Virus record (IMG/VR): IMGVR_UViG_3300037493_004043
Span: 1-20,995 of that record
Length of the DNA: 20,995 bases
DNA from: a virus
Strand: one strand, 5' to 3'
Under the pieces are notes generated by a model, which saw only the letters and a program-made list of their open reading frames with translations, was not told where the DNA came from and ran no database searches. Below, piece by piece: positions 1,328 through 13,465 of the stretch (position 1 is the stretch's first letter; each line of letters opens with the position of its first letter). The position numbers and the translations under genes were made by a program.

Positions 1328-2223
1328 GGCTGGTACGCTTTCTCAGCTGCAAGGATACGGGCTTTCGCTATCTCGATGTAGTCTGCGTCCATCTCGCACC
1401 CGATGAACCGGAAGCCTTCAAGGACAGCACCCCGCCCTGTAGACCCTGAGCCGGTGAACGGGTCAAGCACGATACCGCCGGGAGGTGTAACCATACGGCA
1501 CAAGTAGCGCATTAGGTCGGTAGGCTTTACGGTTGGGTGGAAGTTGTTCTCGCACCCATCGTCCCGGTCTTCCTTGCAGGCTTTAGGCGTGTAGAAGAAT
1601 CGTGCCGCTTCCCCCATGCCGCGCAGGACATCGTCACAACCATCATGTATGACGTTAGCAGGCCACCTGCCTAAGTCGTGTGAACCACAGAATCTTGGTT
1701 TTTTACCTACCCAAAACTCATCCACTACAGTTGCAGATCGGTCTTTTTCATCCCACTTTTCATCTGTCTCAATCCTGCAACCGTCAATATTGATTGCACC
1801 TGTACCGTATGCCTGCACGTTATCTGCCACCGTGCCTTTGAACGGCTTCCGTGCCATCGTTATAGGCTCCATGGCAGGCTTGAGTGCCGTACCCCATCCT
1901 TGCCTATCGTCTTGCAGGTTGTGAGACTTAGGGAAGCCAGAGCCGTACATCCATGCAATCATGTCGCGTATCTCAAACCCTGCATCTTCGATGCGTACCG
2001 CCATGCGGTGTTGCGTACGTGTCCCTGCAAACGCCAACAGATAACCGCCGGGCTTCAGTACCCGTAGGCACTGCTCCCATATCTCAACGCTTGGAACGTC
2101 ATAATCCCACCGCTTGCCCATGAAGGATAAGCCGTACGGCGGATCTGTTACGACAGCATCAACGGAAGCATCCGGCAGGGTTCGCAGGATGTCTAAACAG
2201 TTGCCGTGGTGTAGCTCATGCAT
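1309..2223 (-). CDS. Site-specific DNA methyltransferase (N6-adenine/N4-cytosine, DPPY type)
   Basis: An S-adenosylmethionine-dependent amino-methyltransferase that modifies exocyclic amino groups in DNA, probably protecting phage DNA from host restriction. The catalytic DPPY is at residues 27-30, near the N-terminus, and the cofactor motif DPFTGSG is at 254-260 near the C-terminus. This catalytic-then-cofactor order is that of the beta class. HPTVKP at 229-234 is typical just before the cofactor half. The middle (about 90-215) is the likely target recognition region. At 304 aa it is full length. Its ATG overlaps the end of the small terminase gene by 8 bases and its stop overlaps terL, so it belongs to the packaging operon. 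Target sequence cannot be read from the protein. No partner endonuclease is seen. Confidence 0.93.
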   Translation of the reverse strand: MHELHHGNCLDILRTLPDASVDAVVTDPPYGLSFMGKRWDYDVPSVEIWEQCLRVLKPGGYLLAFAGTRTQHRMAVRIEDAGFEIRDMIAWMYGSGFPKSHNLQDDRQGWGTALKPAMEPITMARKPFKGTVADNVQAYGTGAINIDGCRIETDEKWDEKDRSATVVDEFWVGKKPRFCGSHDLGRWPANVIHDGCDDVLRGMGEAARFFYTPKACKEDRDDGCENNFHPTVKPTDLMRYLCRMVTPPGGIVLDPFTGSGSTGRGAVLEGFRFIGCEMDADYIEIAKARILAAEKAYQPCLTFD

Positions 2224-2587
2224 TAGGCTTGTCTGCGTACTCCACGATGACCTTTACCGGGCTACCGTCTGCCCCGGTTTGTTCTACCCGGCTAGACCAC
2301 TCGGCCTTGTGCTTCCGTTCAAGCCACCATGCAGCCGCCTGCCATGTAGTCTTTGTGGCATCTTGGATAACGGCAAGGTTCCGCAGCTCCGCTTCACCTT
2401 CCGCTTTTTCTACAGCGTATGAAAAATCAGAATATTCCTTGAGCCAGTTGGCAAAGGTTGTCTGGTCAATACCAGCGGCAGCACAGGAAGCCCTGCGGGT
2501 GTTACCACCTCGCAGAGCCTCTGTTATCTTTGCCACGGTTGGCGGTGTGTACTTGGTTGGTCTACCCGCGTTTGGTTGTGCTGCCAT
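2216..2587 (-). CDS. Terminase small subunit-like DNA-binding protein
   Basis: A 123-aa helix-turn-helix protein. The N-terminal GRPTKYTPP followed by an ACAAAGID...FANWLKEY recognition-helix pattern, then a charged helix (VEKAEGEAELRN) and WWLERKHKAEW, is the pattern known from phage terminase small subunits, which recognise pac or cos DNA and load TerL. The position two genes upstream of terL supports this. Its start ATG lies within the end of the upstream small membrane gene (26-base overlap), with GGAAAG as a weak ribosome site. A plain HTH regulator is the alternative. Confidence 0.78.
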   Translation of the reverse strand: MAAQPNAGRPTKYTPPTVAKITEALRGGNTRRASCAAAGIDQTTFANWLKEYSDFSYAVEKAEGEAELRNLAVIQDATKTTWQAAAWWLERKHKAEWSSRVEQTGADGSPVKVIVEYADKPNA

Positions 2588-2768
2588 CTAAGTTCTTTCC
2601 AATCTCAGCGGAGGTAGCCCACATTAGAGCTGCCCTCATCTTTTCATCGCTGATGCCTTGCTTTTTAGCCCGTTTCTTCACATCGTTATACAGCCATCGT
2701 GTATACATCTCGTTGTATACCGCCAAGCATCCAGCACCGAGCAGGACACCAAGAGCAAAAAGAATCAT
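2562..2768 (-). CDS. Small single-pass membrane protein, unknown function
   Basis: A 68-aa protein with an N-terminal hydrophobic segment (about residues 1-18: MILFALGVLLGAGCLAVY) followed by a basic, soluble tail (VKKRAKKQG). This fits one membrane helix with a cytoplasmic C-terminus. Its ATG overlaps the upstream stop in an ATGA, so it is translationally coupled to the Tad2-like gene. It is away from the endolysin, so a holin role is unsupported, though small size and one helix do not exclude one. Confidence 0.75.
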   Translation of the reverse strand: MILFALGVLLGAGCLAVYNEMYTRWLYNDVKKRAKKQGISDEKMRAALMWATSAEIGKNLDGSTTKRG

Positions 2769-3004
2769 TTGGATACCTCCCCGGTTCGCGGGTCAAGCTT
2801 GACAACTGCCCAATCGGTAGCGAACAGGTCACCAGGTGATAGGGTCAACTCTTCCATCTGCCGTACCGCTTGCCCGGTTGTGTGTACCTCGAAAGCGTTC
2901 CATAGTTCCGAGTATCGCAGGAATACCGAACCTCCCCATTCACCCCGCCATACTGCATTACCGCCACCAGCCATCAAGGCTTGTATCACTTCACCGAATC
3001 TCAT
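2765..3004 (-). CDS. Tad2/DUF2829-like domain protein (possible Thoeris anti-defence)
   Basis: A 79-aa protein beginning MRFGEVIQALMAGG, with WRGEW at about 20-24 and ending in DLFATDWAVVK. The DUF2829 family, which includes the Thoeris anti-defence protein Tad2, is known for M-x-F-x-x-A-L-x-x-(L/M)-K-x-G near the start, a following R-x-x-W, and a terminal D-(L/I)-x-A-x-D-W. All three landmarks are present with normal spacing and length. Tad2 proteins bind cyclic nucleotide signals made by immune systems. The ATG at 3004 is chosen over an upstream TTG (3019) because it forms an ATGA overlap with the preceding gene and matches the family start. Family assignment is from recalled motifs, and ligand binding is inference. 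Confidence 0.72.
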   Translation of the reverse strand: MRFGEVIQALMAGGGNAVWRGEWGGSVFLRYSELWNAFEVHTTGQAVRQMEELTLSPGDLFATDWAVVKLDPRTGEVSK

Positions 3005-3432
3005 TTGATTATCATCCAATCGTGAGCGAGTATGTCAGTGCCCCTAAAGTAAGCAGGGCCGGCATGATGCCGGGTACCTGCGCCATCTAACTTGAACATC
3101 ACTAGTTGCCCGTGTTGTATGGCGTACTGGATTCTTGCTCCGTCCCGTGCCACATAGCGGGATTCCTTCATATGGATTAAGGCCGCGCTGAAGACCATCC
3201 GGCTTGTGTAGTGGGCTGTAGTAGGGGCAAAGGTTGCCACGGCATCGGTACACATCTGCTGGTATCCAAGGCGCTGGGCGTATTCGAGTAGCTCAGGGTC
3301 ACGTACCCACTTCTCGACGCTCTGCCGCCTAACGATGTTGTCGGCGTTAGACCAACTGCCGGTCTCGCTAAAGATTTCCATCGCTTGCCGGATGCGCTCT
3401 TTCTTTTCTTCGACACTAAACGCTTGCGCCAT
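3001..3432 (-). CDS. Protein with C-terminal Tad2/DUF2829-like domain and N-terminal HTH-like extension
   Basis: A 143-aa protein in two parts. Residues 80-143 carry the Tad2-like pattern: MVFSAALIHMKESRYVAR at about 79-96 and TDILAHDWMIIK at the end. Residues 1-78 are an extra helical region with basic and aromatic residues (ERIRQAMEIF, VRRQSVEKWVRDPELLEYAQ) that may be a helix-turn-helix. The residue after the conserved Arg is not the usual Trp, so the pocket may differ. The next gene downstream is a second, minimal copy of the same domain. Its ATG lies 17 bases inside the end of the DUF3310 gene. An internal ATG at 3198 could give the domain alone, but lacks a good ribosome site. Confidence 0.68.
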   Translation of the reverse strand: MAQAFSVEEKKERIRQAMEIFSETGSWSNADNIVRRQSVEKWVRDPELLEYAQRLGYQQMCTDAVATFAPTTAHYTSRMVFSAALIHMKESRYVARDGARIQYAIQHGQLVMFKLDGAGTRHHAGPAYFRGTDILAHDWMIIK

Positions 3433-3652
3433 TGATTTCGTCTGCTTCCTTGATTACCCGATCAGCGTACTTGGCATCATGTGTAACTAGAAAAGCCATA
3501 TACCAGAGCGCCTTGATAGCATCTTCATCAGACTTCCCCTTGTGGGGGCAACGTTGCAGATACTTGATTACATTGCCCGCAGCAAAGTCTAAGCCCCAAT
3601 CCTGGACAACATCAATGGCTTGTATCTTGGTTGTTCGGTAGTGTTCGTTCAT
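3416..3652 (-). CDS. DUF3310 family phage protein
   Basis: A 78-aa protein with the family landmarks HY near the start, IQAIDVVQDWGLDF, GNVIKYLQRCPHKG and a D-A-I-K-A-L-W-Y helix. DUF3310 proteins are small phage proteins, often near nucleotide metabolism or replication genes; their biochemical role is not established. Translation is coupled at both ends: ATGA with the upstream stop and a 17-base overlap with the downstream start. Confidence 0.85.
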   Translation of the reverse strand: MNEHYRTTKIQAIDVVQDWGLDFAAGNVIKYLQRCPHKGKSDEDAIKALWYMAFLVTHDAKYADRVIKEADEINGASV

Positions 3653-3990
3653 ACGGCAACCGCTACGCTCTGCTTACACATCATGCGGTCGATGTTGTAG
3701 CTCACTGCCCAGATGTCAGCAAGCACGTCTGCAACCTTCAGGTTGCCAATCCAGAAAGGATTCTGGATGCAATCGCCGTACCAATTATTGCAGTCAAAGA
3801 TGCCGGTGTCATCACCCGTCATAGCAACCATCAGGTGAAGGTCACCCTTGGTCAAGTGAATCTCTGAATGGTCGCTTGATACCTGAATCTGTAGCGGGCA
3901 ATCGATAACGCCGAACGGCTCAACGCGGTTGATGGTCTGTTGTGCGAGGTCACTGAGTACCTCGGCTAAAGTCTTTGTCGTTTCTGTCAT
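3649..3990 (-). CDS. Unknown acidic phage protein
   Basis: A 113-aa protein, not recognised. It starts at the ATG at 3990 (MTETTKTLAEVL), preceded by GGGAG at an 8-base spacing; an in-frame TTG at 4005 lies upstream of that ribosome site and is unlikely. The sequence alternates short strands (PLQIQVSSD, EIHLTKGDLHLMVAM) with a Trp-rich C-terminal half (NNWYGD, NPFWIG, ADIWAVSY), suggesting a compact alpha/beta domain. No signal peptide or membrane helix is seen. It follows the ssDNA-binding-like gene across a hairpin at 4010-4031. Confidence 0.75.
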   Translation of the reverse strand: MTETTKTLAEVLSDLAQQTINRVEPFGVIDCPLQIQVSSDHSEIHLTKGDLHLMVAMTGDDTGIFDCNNWYGDCIQNPFWIGNLKVADVLADIWAVSYNIDRMMCKQSVAVAV

Positions 3991-4009: not shown

Positions 4010-4031
4010 GGGAGGGATTCTAGCCCCTCCC
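4010..4031 (-). other. Hairpin upstream of the ribosome site of the gene at 3990
   Basis: GGGAGGG (4010-4016) and CCCTCCC (4025-4031) form a perfect 7-base stem with an 8-base loop in the leftward mRNA. No U-run follows, so it is not a normal terminator. It lies a few bases upstream of the GGGAG ribosome site for the gene starting at 3990, and its CCCTCCC arm could also pair with that site, so it may tune translation or protect the mRNA end. Confidence 0.5.
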
Positions 4032-4624: not shown

Positions 4625-4996
4625 CTATTTTGTGATTCGCATTTGCGGCACTTCAAGGTCTCCATAAATCCATGTTGGGTATGGAGTATGTTCACCAATC
4701 TCATGTGTATCTGGAATCATCAAAAACTCGTCATACATCAAACCATCAAGACGGCAGAACGAACCACGAGCGCCATCGCACTCAACCATCAGCACGGTGT
4801 CTCCATCAAGTACTAGATGTGTTTCAAAGTCTCGCCGCATTGCCCAGCGGTGCAAAGCCAATCGGCCACCAGCTTCAAGCCAAGCAATAGCCAAGTCAAG
4901 CAGGTACTCGTACTTTTTGCCGTTCTGCTTACGATCCAGTTCAGCACGTTGTTTCAGCTGACTCCATGTCAAAAACTCAAGATCCATTGTTTTCAT
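4625..4996 (-). CDS. Unknown phage protein
   Basis: A 123-aa protein, not recognised. The N-terminal half is helical and charged (TWSQLKQRAELDRKQ, YEYLLDLAIAWLEAGG). The C-terminal half is strand-like and Trp/Tyr-rich (HLVLDGDTVLMVECDG, FLMIPDTHEIGEH, YPTWIYGDL). Two close ATGs (4996 and 4987) could serve as start and the ribosome site is weak (AAGAAAG). It ends only four bases before the -35 box of the downstream promoter, so it is the last gene of the upstream replication operon. A very large hairpin lies in its 5' leader. Confidence 0.72.
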   Translation of the reverse strand: MKTMDLEFLTWSQLKQRAELDRKQNGKKYEYLLDLAIAWLEAGGRLALHRWAMRRDFETHLVLDGDTVLMVECDGARGSFCRLDGLMYDEFLMIPDTHEIGEHTPYPTWIYGDLEVPQMRITK

Positions 4997-7465: not shown

Positions 7466-7825
7466 TTATACACCAAAAGTAAAGCCCACATGATCGGCTA
7501 TTGCCTTGGCAGCATCGTGCCACGTGTAAGCCACCACAAACTTGTACCCGTGCGGCTGAAGCGCATCACGGAAGGAAACCTGCCCCGGTGTCAACCTGCC
7601 TTTACCTGCCTTCATCTCAACGAACAAGCCGGGTACGGGGCAGGGTAGGAAGATGTCCCAGACACCCGGCTTGACTCCCATAGCTTTGAACTTTGCAGCT
7701 GTACGCGGGTCACGGTAGCCGCCGTTAGGGCAATGGTATATGGTTGCAAGCTCAGGGTGCTTAGACTGCATCAGGCGTACCCAAGTGATTAGAGCAATCT
7801 GCTCGCGGTCTTCAAGATGCTTCAT
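7466..7825 (-). CDS. VRR-NUC domain nuclease (Holliday junction resolvase-like)
   Basis: A 119-aa stand-alone VRR-NUC protein. It shows E-x-x-x-Q-x-x-x-x-x-W near the start, HCPNGGYRDPRTAAKFKAMGVKPGVWDIFLP (catalytic Asp in GVWD), GLFVEMKAGKG (catalytic E-x-K) and a following Gln (TPGQ). This is the PD-(D/E)xK core expected of the family at normal phage length. Such enzymes cut branched DNA and probably resolve replication or recombination intermediates before packaging. Its ATG overlaps the end of the sigma gene by 14 bases with GAGGG upstream. Confidence 0.9.
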   Translation of the reverse strand: MKHLEDREQIALITWVRLMQSKHPELATIYHCPNGGYRDPRTAAKFKAMGVKPGVWDIFLPCPVPGLFVEMKAGKGRLTPGQVSFRDALQPHGYKFVVAYTWHDAAKAIADHVGFTFGV

Positions 7826-8633
7826 ACGTTACCCTCAGTTGCGCTAGTGCCTTGTTGATGCGCTCTTTGACCACTGCCGGAGGTATGCGGTACCGGCTTG
7901 CTACCATGTGGATGGTCTGCGGTATCCGTCCATCAAGCCCAAGGTGTAGGGCTATCATCTGCCGGGTCTCGTCATCAAGAGCGCCCAAGGCCGTCATAAG
8001 GGTACCGCCTTCAGACTCAGCAAAGTACTCATCCTCTGCCGATACTGTAGATCCGAAGATGGCAGTATCACCAAGCACGAGTTGAGACCCTTGTACCGGG
8101 GTCTCGATTGACATCGGCTCGATGCCGGATGCCGTACGGCATATCTCGATGGTTTCAAGGGTCATACCGGAGCGTTCGGATAGTTCTTCATCGGTTGGTG
8201 GTCTTCGTAGCTCAATCTCCAGGATGACATAGAACCGCTTTAGTTTGTGCCACTTCACGAGCGCGTGTTCGGCAATCCGGATGGTGCGGTACTGGTTGCT
8301 TTGGTAGCGTCTAAGCTTTTGATAAATCCAAGGATGCGCGTAAGTGCTGAAGCGCAAACCCCGCTCAGGTTCCCACTTTTCGATTGCACGAATGAGACCC
8401 TCAACGCAATATTGACACGCATCCGTGAAGTGCTCCTTGTGCTTGATGACCTTGCATACCTCACGAATGAAAGCGTAGTTGTGGCGGATCATAGCCTCAA
8501 AACAATCATCTTTATGGATGTCTTGCGACCAGCCGTAGTGTAGTAAAACCATCTCCTCGTGAGACAACAAACGCTCCGGAGCCTTACTCAAAGCCCGGAG
8601 CGTCTGCCGAATGATACTTGGTCTTACCTGCAA
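7812..8633 (-). CDS. Phage-encoded sigma-70 family RNA polymerase sigma factor
   Basis: A sigma factor that would redirect host RNA polymerase. Region 2 is clear: FEAMIRHNYAFIREVC, an aromatic/acidic YCVEGLIRAIEKWEPERG and FSTYAHPWIYQKLRRY, the -10 recognition helix. A region 3-like IELRRPPTDEELSERSGMT follows, and the C-terminal IALHLGLDG...VASRYRIPPAVVKERINKALAQLR fits a region 4 helix-turn-helix. So it is a full three-region sigma (273 aa), not a short ECF type. The open frame reaches 8738, but that start would lie 115 bases inside the methyltransferase. The TTG at 8633 has AGGA 7 bases upstream and overlaps the methyltransferase end by 10 bases; an ATG at 8657 lacks a ribosome site. Confidence 0.87.
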   Translation of the reverse strand: MQVRPSIIRQTLRALSKAPERLLSHEEMVLLHYGWSQDIHKDDCFEAMIRHNYAFIREVCKVIKHKEHFTDACQYCVEGLIRAIEKWEPERGLRFSTYAHPWIYQKLRRYQSNQYRTIRIAEHALVKWHKLKRFYVILEIELRRPPTDEELSERSGMTLETIEICRTASGIEPMSIETPVQGSQLVLGDTAIFGSTVSAEDEYFAESEGGTLMTALGALDDETRQMIALHLGLDGRIPQTIHMVASRYRIPPAVVKERINKALAQLRVTYEAS

Positions 8634-10075
8634 GCCTGTATCCTGGAACCAATCCATCGCATGACAGGTACAGCCATTGAGTTCCCTATCGCCTTGTAGC
8701 GTGGCCCGTCTGGAGTGATTGGGAGTATATCTGTCCAACCATCCGGGAAGCCCTGCAAACGTTCACATTCGGTCGGTGTCAGCCTTCGTACCGCCATGCC
8801 TTGCATCAGGTGCTTATCTTGACTGGTTGCAATGGTGTACGCCTTTTCATCCTGCCCCATATAACCACTGCCACCGGTTCCAGGCTTTGCTATCCCGCCG
8901 TTAGTACCGGTGTAATGTCCAAGCCCTCGTATCTTGAATGTATGAGCAGGCTGAATAATCATCGGGGTATTGCGTCCGCTGGCATTTGAGTTTGTGCCTA
9001 ACGTGCTGGCTATCGGACTGGTTCGCAACTCACCGAGCTGGTTCTGCGCGAATGACTCCACCACGTAGTTGATTGCATGATGGCTTGTCGTGGCTGGTTG
9101 CGTAGACTGGATGCAGTTCGCTACCTCACTCTTTACGGCACTAAAGGTGTTAGCCTTGGCATCTTCACGAACCGAATACACAGTAGGTTGAACCACAAGG
9201 CCTGTTGATCTGATATCACCAACATCAAAGCAGTTGAGCGTGTTGGTTACATCATCGCTTACCCACGTTTCAAAGTCCTCTGTACTCTGCGCCCGTCGTG
9301 ACTTACGGAAGGTTTGCTGTACTAGTGGTGTATTACCTCCACCTGTACCCCAGCGAGCTGCTACCGTTGGTGAAACATCTACAGGGCCAGATACACGGCT
9401 GTCATTTGGATGGTGATCGTACATTACCGGTATCAAGGTTTCGGTGTTTGGGTCGTACCTGCAACCAGTGCCAGTCGTAAGGCATTGGGCAGTTTCTTGC
9501 CCCGACGCTCGGCTCTTCGTAGGATTCCCTCGCAAGCTTTCTGGCTCAAATAATACTTCTGCTGCACGTCTGCTGTCCCCTGAAGAATGTGCGACAACAA
9601 AGACTCTGCGCCTTCGCTGTGGTACTCCGAAGTACTGAGCGTCAAGCACTCGGTAAGCGAACCCATACCCGAGTTGCCCCAACGCCCCAAGGAAGGAACC
9701 AAAGTCCCGTCCTCCGCTGGATGACAAAACACCGGGGACGTTTTCCCAGATAACCCATTCAGGCTTAAAGTGGTCAACCATTCCAAGGAAGGTGAGGGCA
9801 AGGTTACCCCTTGGGTCTTCAAGCCCTTTACGCAATCCGGCAACTGAGAAACTCTGGCAGGGAGTTCCTCCAACGATAAGGTCAACTGCTCCTCGATCAA
9901 TATCCCACTCCTTGTATCTAGTCATGTCCCCAAGGTTCGGCACTCCTGGAAAGTGATGCGCCAACACCTGAGACGGAAACCGCTCAATCTCTGCAAAGGC
10001 TACGGGAGTCCAGCCTAAGGACTCCCATGCAACGGATGCGGCTTCGATGCCACTACACACACTCAGGTATCTCAC
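8624..10075 (-). CDS. C5-cytosine DNA methyltransferase with large repeat-bearing insert
   Basis: Transfers methyl groups to C5 of cytosine in a specific site, probably shielding phage DNA from restriction. Counting from GTG 10075 (483 aa): SVCSGIEAASVAW (motif I) at the start, GGTPCQSFS with catalytic Cys 73 (motif IV), ENVPG at 111 (motif VI), QRRRRVF at 153 (motif VIII), then a roughly 230-residue insert before RRLTPTECERLQGFPDGW and YKAIGNSMAVPVM (motifs IX-X). The insert holds several degenerate A-x-T-L...N-T-P-(L/M)-(V/I) units and is the target recognition part. GTG 10075 is preferred over GTG 10117: it has AGGGGG four to five bases upstream and forms GTGA with the preceding stop. Confidence 0.93.
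   Translation of the reverse strand: MRYLSVCSGIEAASVAWESLGWTPVAFAEIERFPSQVLAHHFPGVPNLGDMTRYKEWDIDRGAVDLIVGGTPCQSFSVAGLRKGLEDPRGNLALTFLGMVDHFKPEWVIWENVPGVLSSSGGRDFGSFLGALGQLGYGFAYRVLDAQYFGVPQRRRRVFVVAHSSGDSRRAAEVLFEPESLRGNPTKSRASGQETAQCLTTGTGCRYDPNTETLIPVMYDHHPNDSRVSGPVDVSPTVAARWGTGGGNTPLVQQTFRKSRRAQSTEDFETWVSDDVTNTLNCFDVGDIRSTGLVVQPTVYSVREDAKANTFSAVKSEVANCIQSTQPATTSHHAINYVVESFAQNQLGELRTSPIASTLGTNSNASGRNTPMIIQPAHTFKIRGLGHYTGTNGGIAKPGTGGSGYMGQDEKAYTIATSQDKHLMQGMAVRRLTPTECERLQGFPDGWTDILPITPDGPRYKAIGNSMAVPVMRWIGSRIQACR
9433..9900 (-). CDS. Candidate overprinted gene inside the C5 methyltransferase (+1 frame)
   Basis: A 155-codon open frame entirely inside the methyltransferase gene, same strand, +1 frame. 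Its second half reads SEGAESLLSHILQG, then QQKYYLSQKACEGILRRAER and RGKKLPNALRLAL. From memory, the YYLS-x-KA-x-x-GILRRAxxRGKxLP pattern recurs in many annotated phage proteins, which would mean the alternative frame is itself conserved. The only ATG is at 9666 (77 aa); upstream starts would be TTGs. It could equally be reached by frameshift from the methyltransferase start. It could also be a passive shadow of a conserved methyltransferase stretch (motif VIII onward), so confidence is modest. Confidence 0.4.
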   Translation of the reverse strand: MIEEQLTLSLEELPARVSQLPDCVKGLKTQGVTLPSPSLEWLTTLSLNGLSGKTSPVFCHPAEDGTLVPSLGRWGNSGMGSLTECLTLSTSEYHSEGAESLLSHILQGTADVQQKYYLSQKACEGILRRAERRGKKLPNALRLALVAGTTQTPKP

Positions 10076-12870: not shown

Positions 12871-12915
12871 AAAAAGTGACCCGGCGGTTTGAGCATATGC
12901 AGAGGCTTGCCGGGT
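12871..12915 (-). terminator. Rho-independent terminator of the leftward tail/lysis operon
   Basis: In the leftward transcript ACCCGGC (12915-12909) pairs with GCCGGGT (12885-12879), followed by CAC and five U (12875-12871). The loop is long (23 bases) but contains a GCATATGC palindrome. It begins 14 bases after the endolysin stop. Confidence 0.65.
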
Positions 12916-12928
12916 TCGTTGCTAGATT

Positions 12929-13465
12929 CTACCAGTCGATGTGTACAAAGCCGCCATTGCTGCCAAGCTCGCGCCATGCTCTGGCTTTCCTGTAAACCCC
13001 GTCACCCTCGCGCTTGACTGCATCTTCATCTTCCATCTCTGGGGACGTATTGCCCTCAACCGTCTTGACCCCCCAGGGGAAAACACCGGTCACGATACCG
13101 ATGTGGGCAAGCCGGTTGAGTGGTGCAAACCAAAAGCAGATAAGGTCACCGATTCTTACTTTGGTATGGTCGGCTTCCGCATCCTTCACGGATAACCAAT
13201 TCTTCGTACGTCGCGCCCAGTTGCCATGATCGGGACAGTATGCCGAGCGTGGCCAGTCTGCCGGGATGGTTAGGTCGAGGTCATGAGCTGCATTGCGTAG
13301 CCTGTAGACAACGAAAGCAGCACACCAAGGGCTACCGGGTGGCACAGGTGGAGTGGTTGAGGCTTGGTAGATTTCTACCGCCTTGCCCCTGTTGTCCCCG
13401 GTCTCAACTACACCAACATTATCGATGGCTTCCTTAGCTGCACCTAAAGCGATAGGTCTACTCAT
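12929..13465 (-). CDS. CHAP/NlpC-P60-type peptidoglycan hydrolase (endolysin)
   Basis: A 178-aa single-domain cysteine peptidase/amidase, likely the endolysin that cuts cell-wall peptide links at lysis. GSPWCAAFVVY carries the catalytic Cys (about residue 48), IGDLICFWF precedes AHIGIVTGV with the catalytic His, and VEGNTS supplies the third polar residue. No cell-wall binding domain and no signal peptide are seen, so a holin would be needed; none was recognised nearby. ATG 13465 has AAGGA about 10 bases upstream. It is the last gene of the leftward structural operon, followed by a terminator. Confidence 0.85.
   Translation of the reverse strand: MSRPIALGAAKEAIDNVGVVETGDNRGKAVEIYQASTTPPVPPGSPWCAAFVVYRLRNAAHDLDLTIPADWPRSAYCPDHGNWARRTKNWLSVKDAEADHTKVRIGDLICFWFAPLNRLAHIGIVTGVFPWGVKTVEGNTSPEMEDEDAVKREGDGVYRKARAWRELGSNGGFVHIDW

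Follow-up and report, generated by a model that had tools for sequence, protein, structure and literature searches.

Descriptions of nucleotide sponges mostly concern small proteins that occur singly, and a viral locus in which two Tad2-like genes lie in tandem, one of them extended at its N-terminus, raises the question of what the second gene and the extension are for. We examined such a locus in a 20,995-base IMG/VR virus record (IMGVR_UViG_3300037493_004043, positions 1-20,995), the whole of which is referred to here as the window. An initial annotation had proposed that two adjacent genes, called A and B below, encode Tad2/DUF2829-like proteins with coupled translation, that B is fused to an HTH-like N-terminus, and that this fusion could make B a regulator rather than a sponge.

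Organization of the locus

The genes of interest lie on the minus strand, where the order from 5' to 3' is a gene without a family, a DUF3310 gene, B, A, a gene for a 68-aa protein, terS, a DNA methyltransferase gene and terL (Table 1). Neither Pfam nor PHROG-type profile searches gave a family match for the first of these genes, which opens a tightly packed stretch running into B and then A. The DUF3310 gene is directly 5' of B and overlaps it by 17 nt, and the 68-aa protein is the right-hand neighbour of nearly all of the arrays found in relatives. The methyltransferase and TerL were assigned by reading translations, the latter being backed by a comparison with the TerL proteins of cultured phages, among which only remote relatives were found (best 55% over 42%). 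No match to A, B or the B' protein introduced below was found among cultured phages, and no relative was found in the host genomes searched.

Table 1. Features of the Tad2-like locus and its immediate surroundings in the window.
Feature	Position	Strand	Description and basis
Gene B, 143 aa	3001..3432	-	N-terminal helical region and C-terminal Tad2-like domain; array head
B N-terminal region, residues 1-78	3199..3432	-	AlphaFold helices; HTH-like, putative
B Tad2-like domain, residues 79-143	3004..3198	-	Pfam alignment and fold match
Gene A, minimal Tad2-like, 79 aa	2765..3004	-	PF11195, fold, family profile
ATGA overlap, B stop/A start	3001..3004	-	Sequence; translational coupling
DUF3310 gene	3416..3652	-	Pfam PF11753, 48.7 bits
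Gene without a family, ATG 3990	3649..3990	-	Start and junctions kept in relatives
Covarying hairpin GGGAGGG...CCCTCCC	4010..4031	-	Just 5' of gene 3649..3990
Small conserved protein, 68 aa	2562..2768	-	Hydrophobic N-terminus; 3' of A
Terminase small subunit (terS)	2216..2587	-	phrog_4102, 110 bits

Two other places in the window drew our attention. A gene at 4625-4996, coding for 123 aa, had a Tad2-like appearance by eye, an assignment that was not upheld on profile comparison. Farther away, an Rfam abiF RNA (RF03085) was detected at 12879-12914 on the minus strand, scoring 39 bits where the gathering score is 37; it adjoins a gene at 12929-13465, and no obvious AbiF toxin gene is nearby. An abiF RNA has also been reported in the cyanophage S-CREM1 (PMC9964418), and the one in the window could be a phage-borne antitoxin decoy.

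Gene A is a minimal Tad2-like protein

The open reading frame of A spans 2765-3019 and had been listed as starting at the TTG at 3019, which would give 84 aa. The start codon is almost certainly the ATG at 3004 instead, giving a protein of 79 aa that begins MRFGEV, because relatives with a different upstream gene also begin at this motif; most relatives of A use the equivalent start. The overlap between B and A reads ...ATC AAATGAGATTC..., in agreement with the ATGA coupling originally proposed. The same -4 junction is the commonest in the arrays of relatives (57 cases), and in 20 cases the junction is -19, where an in-frame start lies another 15 nt upstream.

A exceeds the cut-off of Pfam family PF11195 (Tad2-like, formerly DUF2829), scoring 26.1 bits against a cut-off of 25 (E 1.2e-5). 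A profile built from 47 small array paralogs, the A family, matches the solved proteins SPO1 Tad2, ModTad2, SptTad2 and AcrIIA7 with E-values from 9e-9 to 8e-7. The AlphaFold model of A, which like that of B is a monomer, has a pLDDT of 85.9, and its five best Foldseek matches in the PDB are all Tad2 or AcrIIA7 structures (TM about 0.6, probability 0.99-1.00, E 0.008-0.2), after which the probability drops to 0.08. A also retains F..A/V..L....G....R..W as its entry motif and D-x-x-x-x-D-W near the C-terminus, with R25, W28, D69 and W70 kept at 90% or more across the 47 paralogs, and dN is well below dS in all comparisons, indicating strong purifying selection. Searches of PDB chains with the single sequences of A and B gave chance-level matches only, so that family profiles are needed to link either protein to Tad2, and neither protein was matched in PADLOC or NCBIfam.

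Gene B carries a Tad2-like domain with Ala in place of the usual Trp

For B the Pfam score is sub-threshold when the protein is taken alone (16.7 bits against the same cut-off of 25, E 0.011, residues 79-142), and 29 of 30 B relatives match PF11195 weakly, the best at E 0.004. This shortfall is the one point in favour of the view that B lies outside the Tad2 family and resembles it by chance. We regard that view as barely credible: B scores 57 bits with an array Tad2 profile (built partly from B relatives), it is linked by profile to the A family, and a joint profile of B and B' reaches SPO1 Tad2 at E 0.002. The model of B has a pLDDT of 77.3 overall and of 81-92 in the C-terminal domain, and Tad2 or AcrIIA7 structures, all at probability 1.00, fill the first seven places among its PDB fold matches (E 8e-4 to 0.011), with the eighth match at 0.20. 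Individual Foldseek hits have only modest E-values (0.008 at best for A, 8e-4 for B), yet no rival fold appears among the matches of either model. The homology of B to Tad2 therefore rests on family profiles and fold rather than on a single-protein Pfam score, and the original assignment of both proteins to this family stands, each having a profile link to Tad2 and a model that matches solved Tad2 or AcrIIA7 structures best.

The absence from B of the Trp that usually follows the entry Arg had also been pointed out, and it proved to be both real and general. B keeps the Arg (Arg96) and has Ala99 at the position of the Tad2 Trp, and this Ala is invariant in the alignments of B (all 30 proteins) and of B' (all 25). 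Among the accessory proteins of the arrays, 205 of 231 have a Trp 2-5 residues after a basic residue. A D116-G117-x-G119-x-R121 loop is likewise invariant in B and common to B'. To locate such residues, the pocket segments described for Tad2 (loops beta1-beta2 and beta3-beta4 and strand beta4; PMC12043709) were mapped through the strands of the B model. Of the 19 positions in these segments, 7 are invariant in B and B' alike (A99, D116, G117, G119, R121, A127 and F129), as against 6 of 46 elsewhere (one-sided Fisher p 0.036), a weak enrichment that was tested after looking, is partly due to glycine turns and is suggestive only. Given the replacement of Trp by Ala and the different conserved loop, it is plausible from the sequences that B and A bind different ligands; having lost the usual Trp, the Tad2-like domain of B may also bind nothing. 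Both halves of B have dN well below dS in all comparisons.

The pair belongs to an array of variable content

With B, A and B' as queries, 139 related viral loci were gathered at first and more later on, the DUF3310 gene forming the left border of the array and terS the right. Across 102 distinct loci the interval between these borders holds one to six Tad2-like genes, and in 102 of 102 there is exactly one extended head protein, which is B in 45 loci and an alternative, B', in 57, and never both. Because this set had been found with array genes, a second count was made on loci found through terS alone. That sample comprised 80 loci, 50 of them with the whole DUF3310-terS interval, and all 50 again had exactly one head (25 B, 25 B'), together with zero to four small, diverged accessory Tad2-like genes. 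Two loci without a DUF3310 border, L137 and L365, have Tad2-like genes and neither B nor B' in the 1.5-2.1 kb 5' of terS, so rare exceptions to the one-head rule are possible; most contigs that lack this border end too early for the presence of a head to be judged. Seven of the 102 loci have an array made of the head only and none has an array without a head, which suggests that the head is the core of the array and the small paralogs are accessory. The B-A pair of the window is a small form of this variable array.

Accessory domains within one array share a median identity of 28%, which makes them old paralogs or imports rather than recent duplications. This strong divergence, along with the wide variation in array content, is what would be expected of a plain set of sponges in which B, A and the paralogs each capture a different signal, the array diversifies in response to the differing signals of its hosts, and the N-termini of the heads serve oligomerization or localization only. 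Tad2 proteins do differ in ligand, with gcADPR, His-ADPR and cyclic dinucleotides all represented (PMC12043709, PMC13299392), and the segments expected to form the pocket retain conserved residues in both B and B'. What such a set leaves unexplained is the retention of a single head while the sponges come and go, a point to which the N-terminal domains of the heads are also relevant.

The arrays show several further peculiarities. At L124:4591-5139 and in L196 (same contig), residues 1-66 and 105-182 of a single open reading frame each form a Tad2-like domain. This is a natural tandem fusion; the initial annotation had raised the possibility that A and B form a hetero-oligomer. Most B'-type loci contain a thyX gene that separates B' from the small Tad2-like gene A (in L085:5381-6010 it scores 149 bits with Pfam Thy1), and no open reading frame of that size was seen at this place in B-type arrays. 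Some accessory Tad2-like proteins of 105-120 aa (L017:6429-6791 and similar) have no Trp and are extended at the C-terminus by about 40 conserved residues. Finally, the 62,434-bp contig IMGVR_UViG_3300042429_000522, about twice the size of the other long contigs, holds a B-type array (L058/L082) and a B'-type array (L156) in different places, and is either two genomes joined in assembly or one genome with both types.

Heads with different N-terminal domains

The initial annotation had described the N-terminus of B as HTH-like. An extension of about 78 aa is indeed present and is predicted to be helical, with AlphaFold placing helices at residues 7-24, 27-32, 39-42 and 46-54 ahead of a disordered linker at 61-76; the block before the linker is modelled with moderate confidence (pLDDT 62-83). 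By eye it resembles a homeodomain-type HTH (..RRQSVEKWVRDPEL..). The Pfam HTH models nevertheless matched the N-terminus of none of the 30 B proteins, and on the strength of the model we describe this region as HTH-like but unproven.

The case is clearer for two other proteins. The N-termini of B' proteins match Pfam HTH_23, above the cut-off in L068 (29.1 bits, cut-off 24.6), and an array protein of L136 has a resolvase-type HTH_7 (37.0 bits, cut-off 23.8) followed by a Tad2-like domain that includes the Trp. The Tad2-like domains of B and B' are clearly homologous (33% identity, hhalign 98-100%), whereas their N-termini are without detectable relation, no profile similarity between them having been found by profile comparison. 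Two findings favour the suggestion that B acts as a regulator and not as a sponge, namely the HTH in B' and the presence of exactly one head per complete locus; the lack of an HTH match for B itself holds the suggestion back. That the N-terminus of B is not provably an HTH suits the plain set of sponges; the HTH of B' and the different HTH of L136 are both left without a role in it, and on balance we consider such a set, including the proposed reason for its diversification, somewhat unlikely.

A further reading starts from the surroundings of the array. The array keeps a constant position between DUF3310 and terS, it abuts terS, the methyltransferase gene and terL, and the HTH region of B' has weak matches to terminase small-subunit families. 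The heads might thus be regulators of packaging or of late genes, with the Tad2-like part serving as a structural or oligomerization module. Profile comparison with TerS gave a weak link for the B' HTH and none for the N-terminus of B, so that a kinship of the latter with TerS, as with the HTH of B', is unsupported. Moreover, head type is almost independent of terS lineage, which is not what would be expected of a partner of TerS. On a terS tree the head type changes 29 times, as compared with an average of 32.3 in shuffles; two TerS sequences were each found with both B and B'; and among pairs of TerS sequences at least 97% identical the head type differs in 39 of 92. A packaging role for the heads is, in our estimation, highly improbable. 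The near-independence from terS indicates that head types with different N-terminal domains are exchanged freely, even among phages that are otherwise nearly identical.

A probable RNA element upstream and the search for control sites

For a regulator of the Acr-Aca kind, an inverted-repeat operator would be expected in the promoter of the operon. The hairpin at 4010-4031 has a stem of 7 bp, and across 17 relatives 92.4% of cells are paired, with 28 double changes as against 0-5 in slid controls. It varies in sequence but keeps its pairing, which points to RNA, and a ribosome-site region with a strictly conserved GGGAGATAA comes after it. From these alignments the hairpin looks like a conserved RNA element that precedes the gene stretch, such as an attenuator or a processing site. 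The hairpin occurs with both B and B' head types, and this allele-independent element was the sole conserved one found 5' of the array, where no allele-specific operator was detected. Promoter and terminator scans gave results at chance level. A 308-aa open reading frame at 7812-8738 on the minus strand resembles, by eye, a sigma-70-family factor; the phage may therefore use promoters of its own, to which the sigma-70 consensus of the promoter scan may not apply.

These results bear on the idea that the phage listens to the very alarm that it goes on to silence. B and B' could act as transcription factors, detecting an immune nucleotide of the host with a Tad2 pocket put to new use and then turning on the sponge bank, perhaps together with neighbouring genes, a proposal that we think unlikely. 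Decidedly unlikely is a signal-gated scheme in which B, upon sensing such a nucleotide, de-represses the sponge array only when the alarm has been raised. The fusion of a ligand-binding fold to a DNA-binding domain in B' and L136 fits this scheme, as does the conservation of the Tad2-like half in B and B' despite their different N-terminal halves. At the same time, the pocket Trp has been lost, no operator was found, and a response induced so late would lag behind the alarm.

Discussion

The explanation that we favour, tentatively and at somewhat less than an even chance, is that the locus is an array directed against signalling, at the head of which stands a regulator whose Tad2 pocket has been remodelled, in an arrangement similar to that of Acr-Aca proteins. 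According to this explanation, A and the up to five further small Tad2-like proteins found in relatives would be sponges for nucleotide alarm signals of the Thoeris or CBASS type. B would be a conserved two-domain head that combines a pocket remodelled by the exchange of Trp for Ala and the invariant DGxGxR loop with a DNA-binding N-terminal domain; it would bind DNA near its own operon and repress it, and ligand or partner binding by its Tad2-like half would either add to counter-defence or release the repression. Nucleotide binding and sponge activity are proposed for A and the accessory proteins by analogy, since the Tad2-family members that have been tested sequester immune nucleotides (PMC12043709), and we infer that the array neighbours of the head are counter-defence genes. 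DNA binding by the heads, control of the array and a coupling of ligand binding to DNA binding are similarly to be regarded as putative. Several observations count against the favoured explanation: the N-terminus of B matches no HTH model and is modelled with moderate confidence, no allele-specific operator was found, the Tad2-like domain of B lacks the usual Trp, and A and B do not have the insertion associated with the binding of cyclic dinucleotides.

The closest known relatives are the solved Tad2 proteins, namely Tad2 of Bacillus phage SPO1 (gp34.65; 8SMF, 8SMG, 8WJE), ModTad2 (9EIB, 8V3E) and SptTad2 (8WJD), with which A and B share fold and family profile. A functional Tad2 sponge is a homotetramer; the models compared here are monomers. 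The solved Tad2s carry an insertion of 17-35 residues, whereas A is shorter and has none; B differs from them in having no Trp after the entry Arg and in its extra N-terminal domain, and the arrays of relatives differ in placing up to six paralogs in tandem. We know of no N-terminal HTH in AcrIIA7. This Tad2 homologue and named type II CRISPR inhibitor (8KBI-8KBM, 8WJC, 9KZR) also matches A and B in profile and fold; its insertion is longer, and according to a PDB entry title its solved complex binds 1',2'-cADPR and cGG. In Tad2 a long insertion after beta2 has been tied to the binding of cyclic dinucleotides (PMC12043709). By length and alignment this insertion is absent from A and B, whose models have 4 and 2 residues, respectively, between the strands.

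The closest working parallel is found in bifunctional anti-CRISPRs, in which an HTH and an inhibitor domain share one polypeptide that represses its own anti-defence operon (PMC10901769, PMC9410906). AcrIIA1, AcrIIA15 and AcrIF24 (PMC9410906, PMC10901769, PMC9001735) all join an HTH to a counter-defence function, as we propose for B, and the operon under the control of AcrIIA1 contains other acr genes. The proposed likeness is one of architecture, with no kinship in sequence expected. The counter-defence halves of these three proteins bind Cas proteins and not nucleotides, and DNA binding by B, unlike that of the Acr-Aca proteins, is putative. The mode of action that we propose for the array, signal sequestration, is shared with the sponges Acb4, Acb2 and Tad1 (PMC11722364, PMC12043709), although their folds are unrelated to those of A and B and no head-of-array fusion is described in those papers. 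In the open-access texts that we searched, we found no description of HTH-Tad2 fusions or of Tad2 arrays. Public structure libraries do hold viral proteins of 147-239 residues annotated as Tad2-like, so extensions as such are not new.

A group of phages thus carries a bank of diverged Tad2-like proteins under one fused head, the N-terminus of which is demonstrably an HTH in B'. If the head regulates the bank, sponges would join the anti-CRISPRs in having built-in control, and if its Tad2-like half serves as a sensor, a viral receptor for the immune messengers of bacteria would have been found. In either case, one fold may serve the phage both to disarm its host and to regulate or sense. The diverged paralogs also offer a ready panel in which to look for new ligands, and hence for new immune signals.
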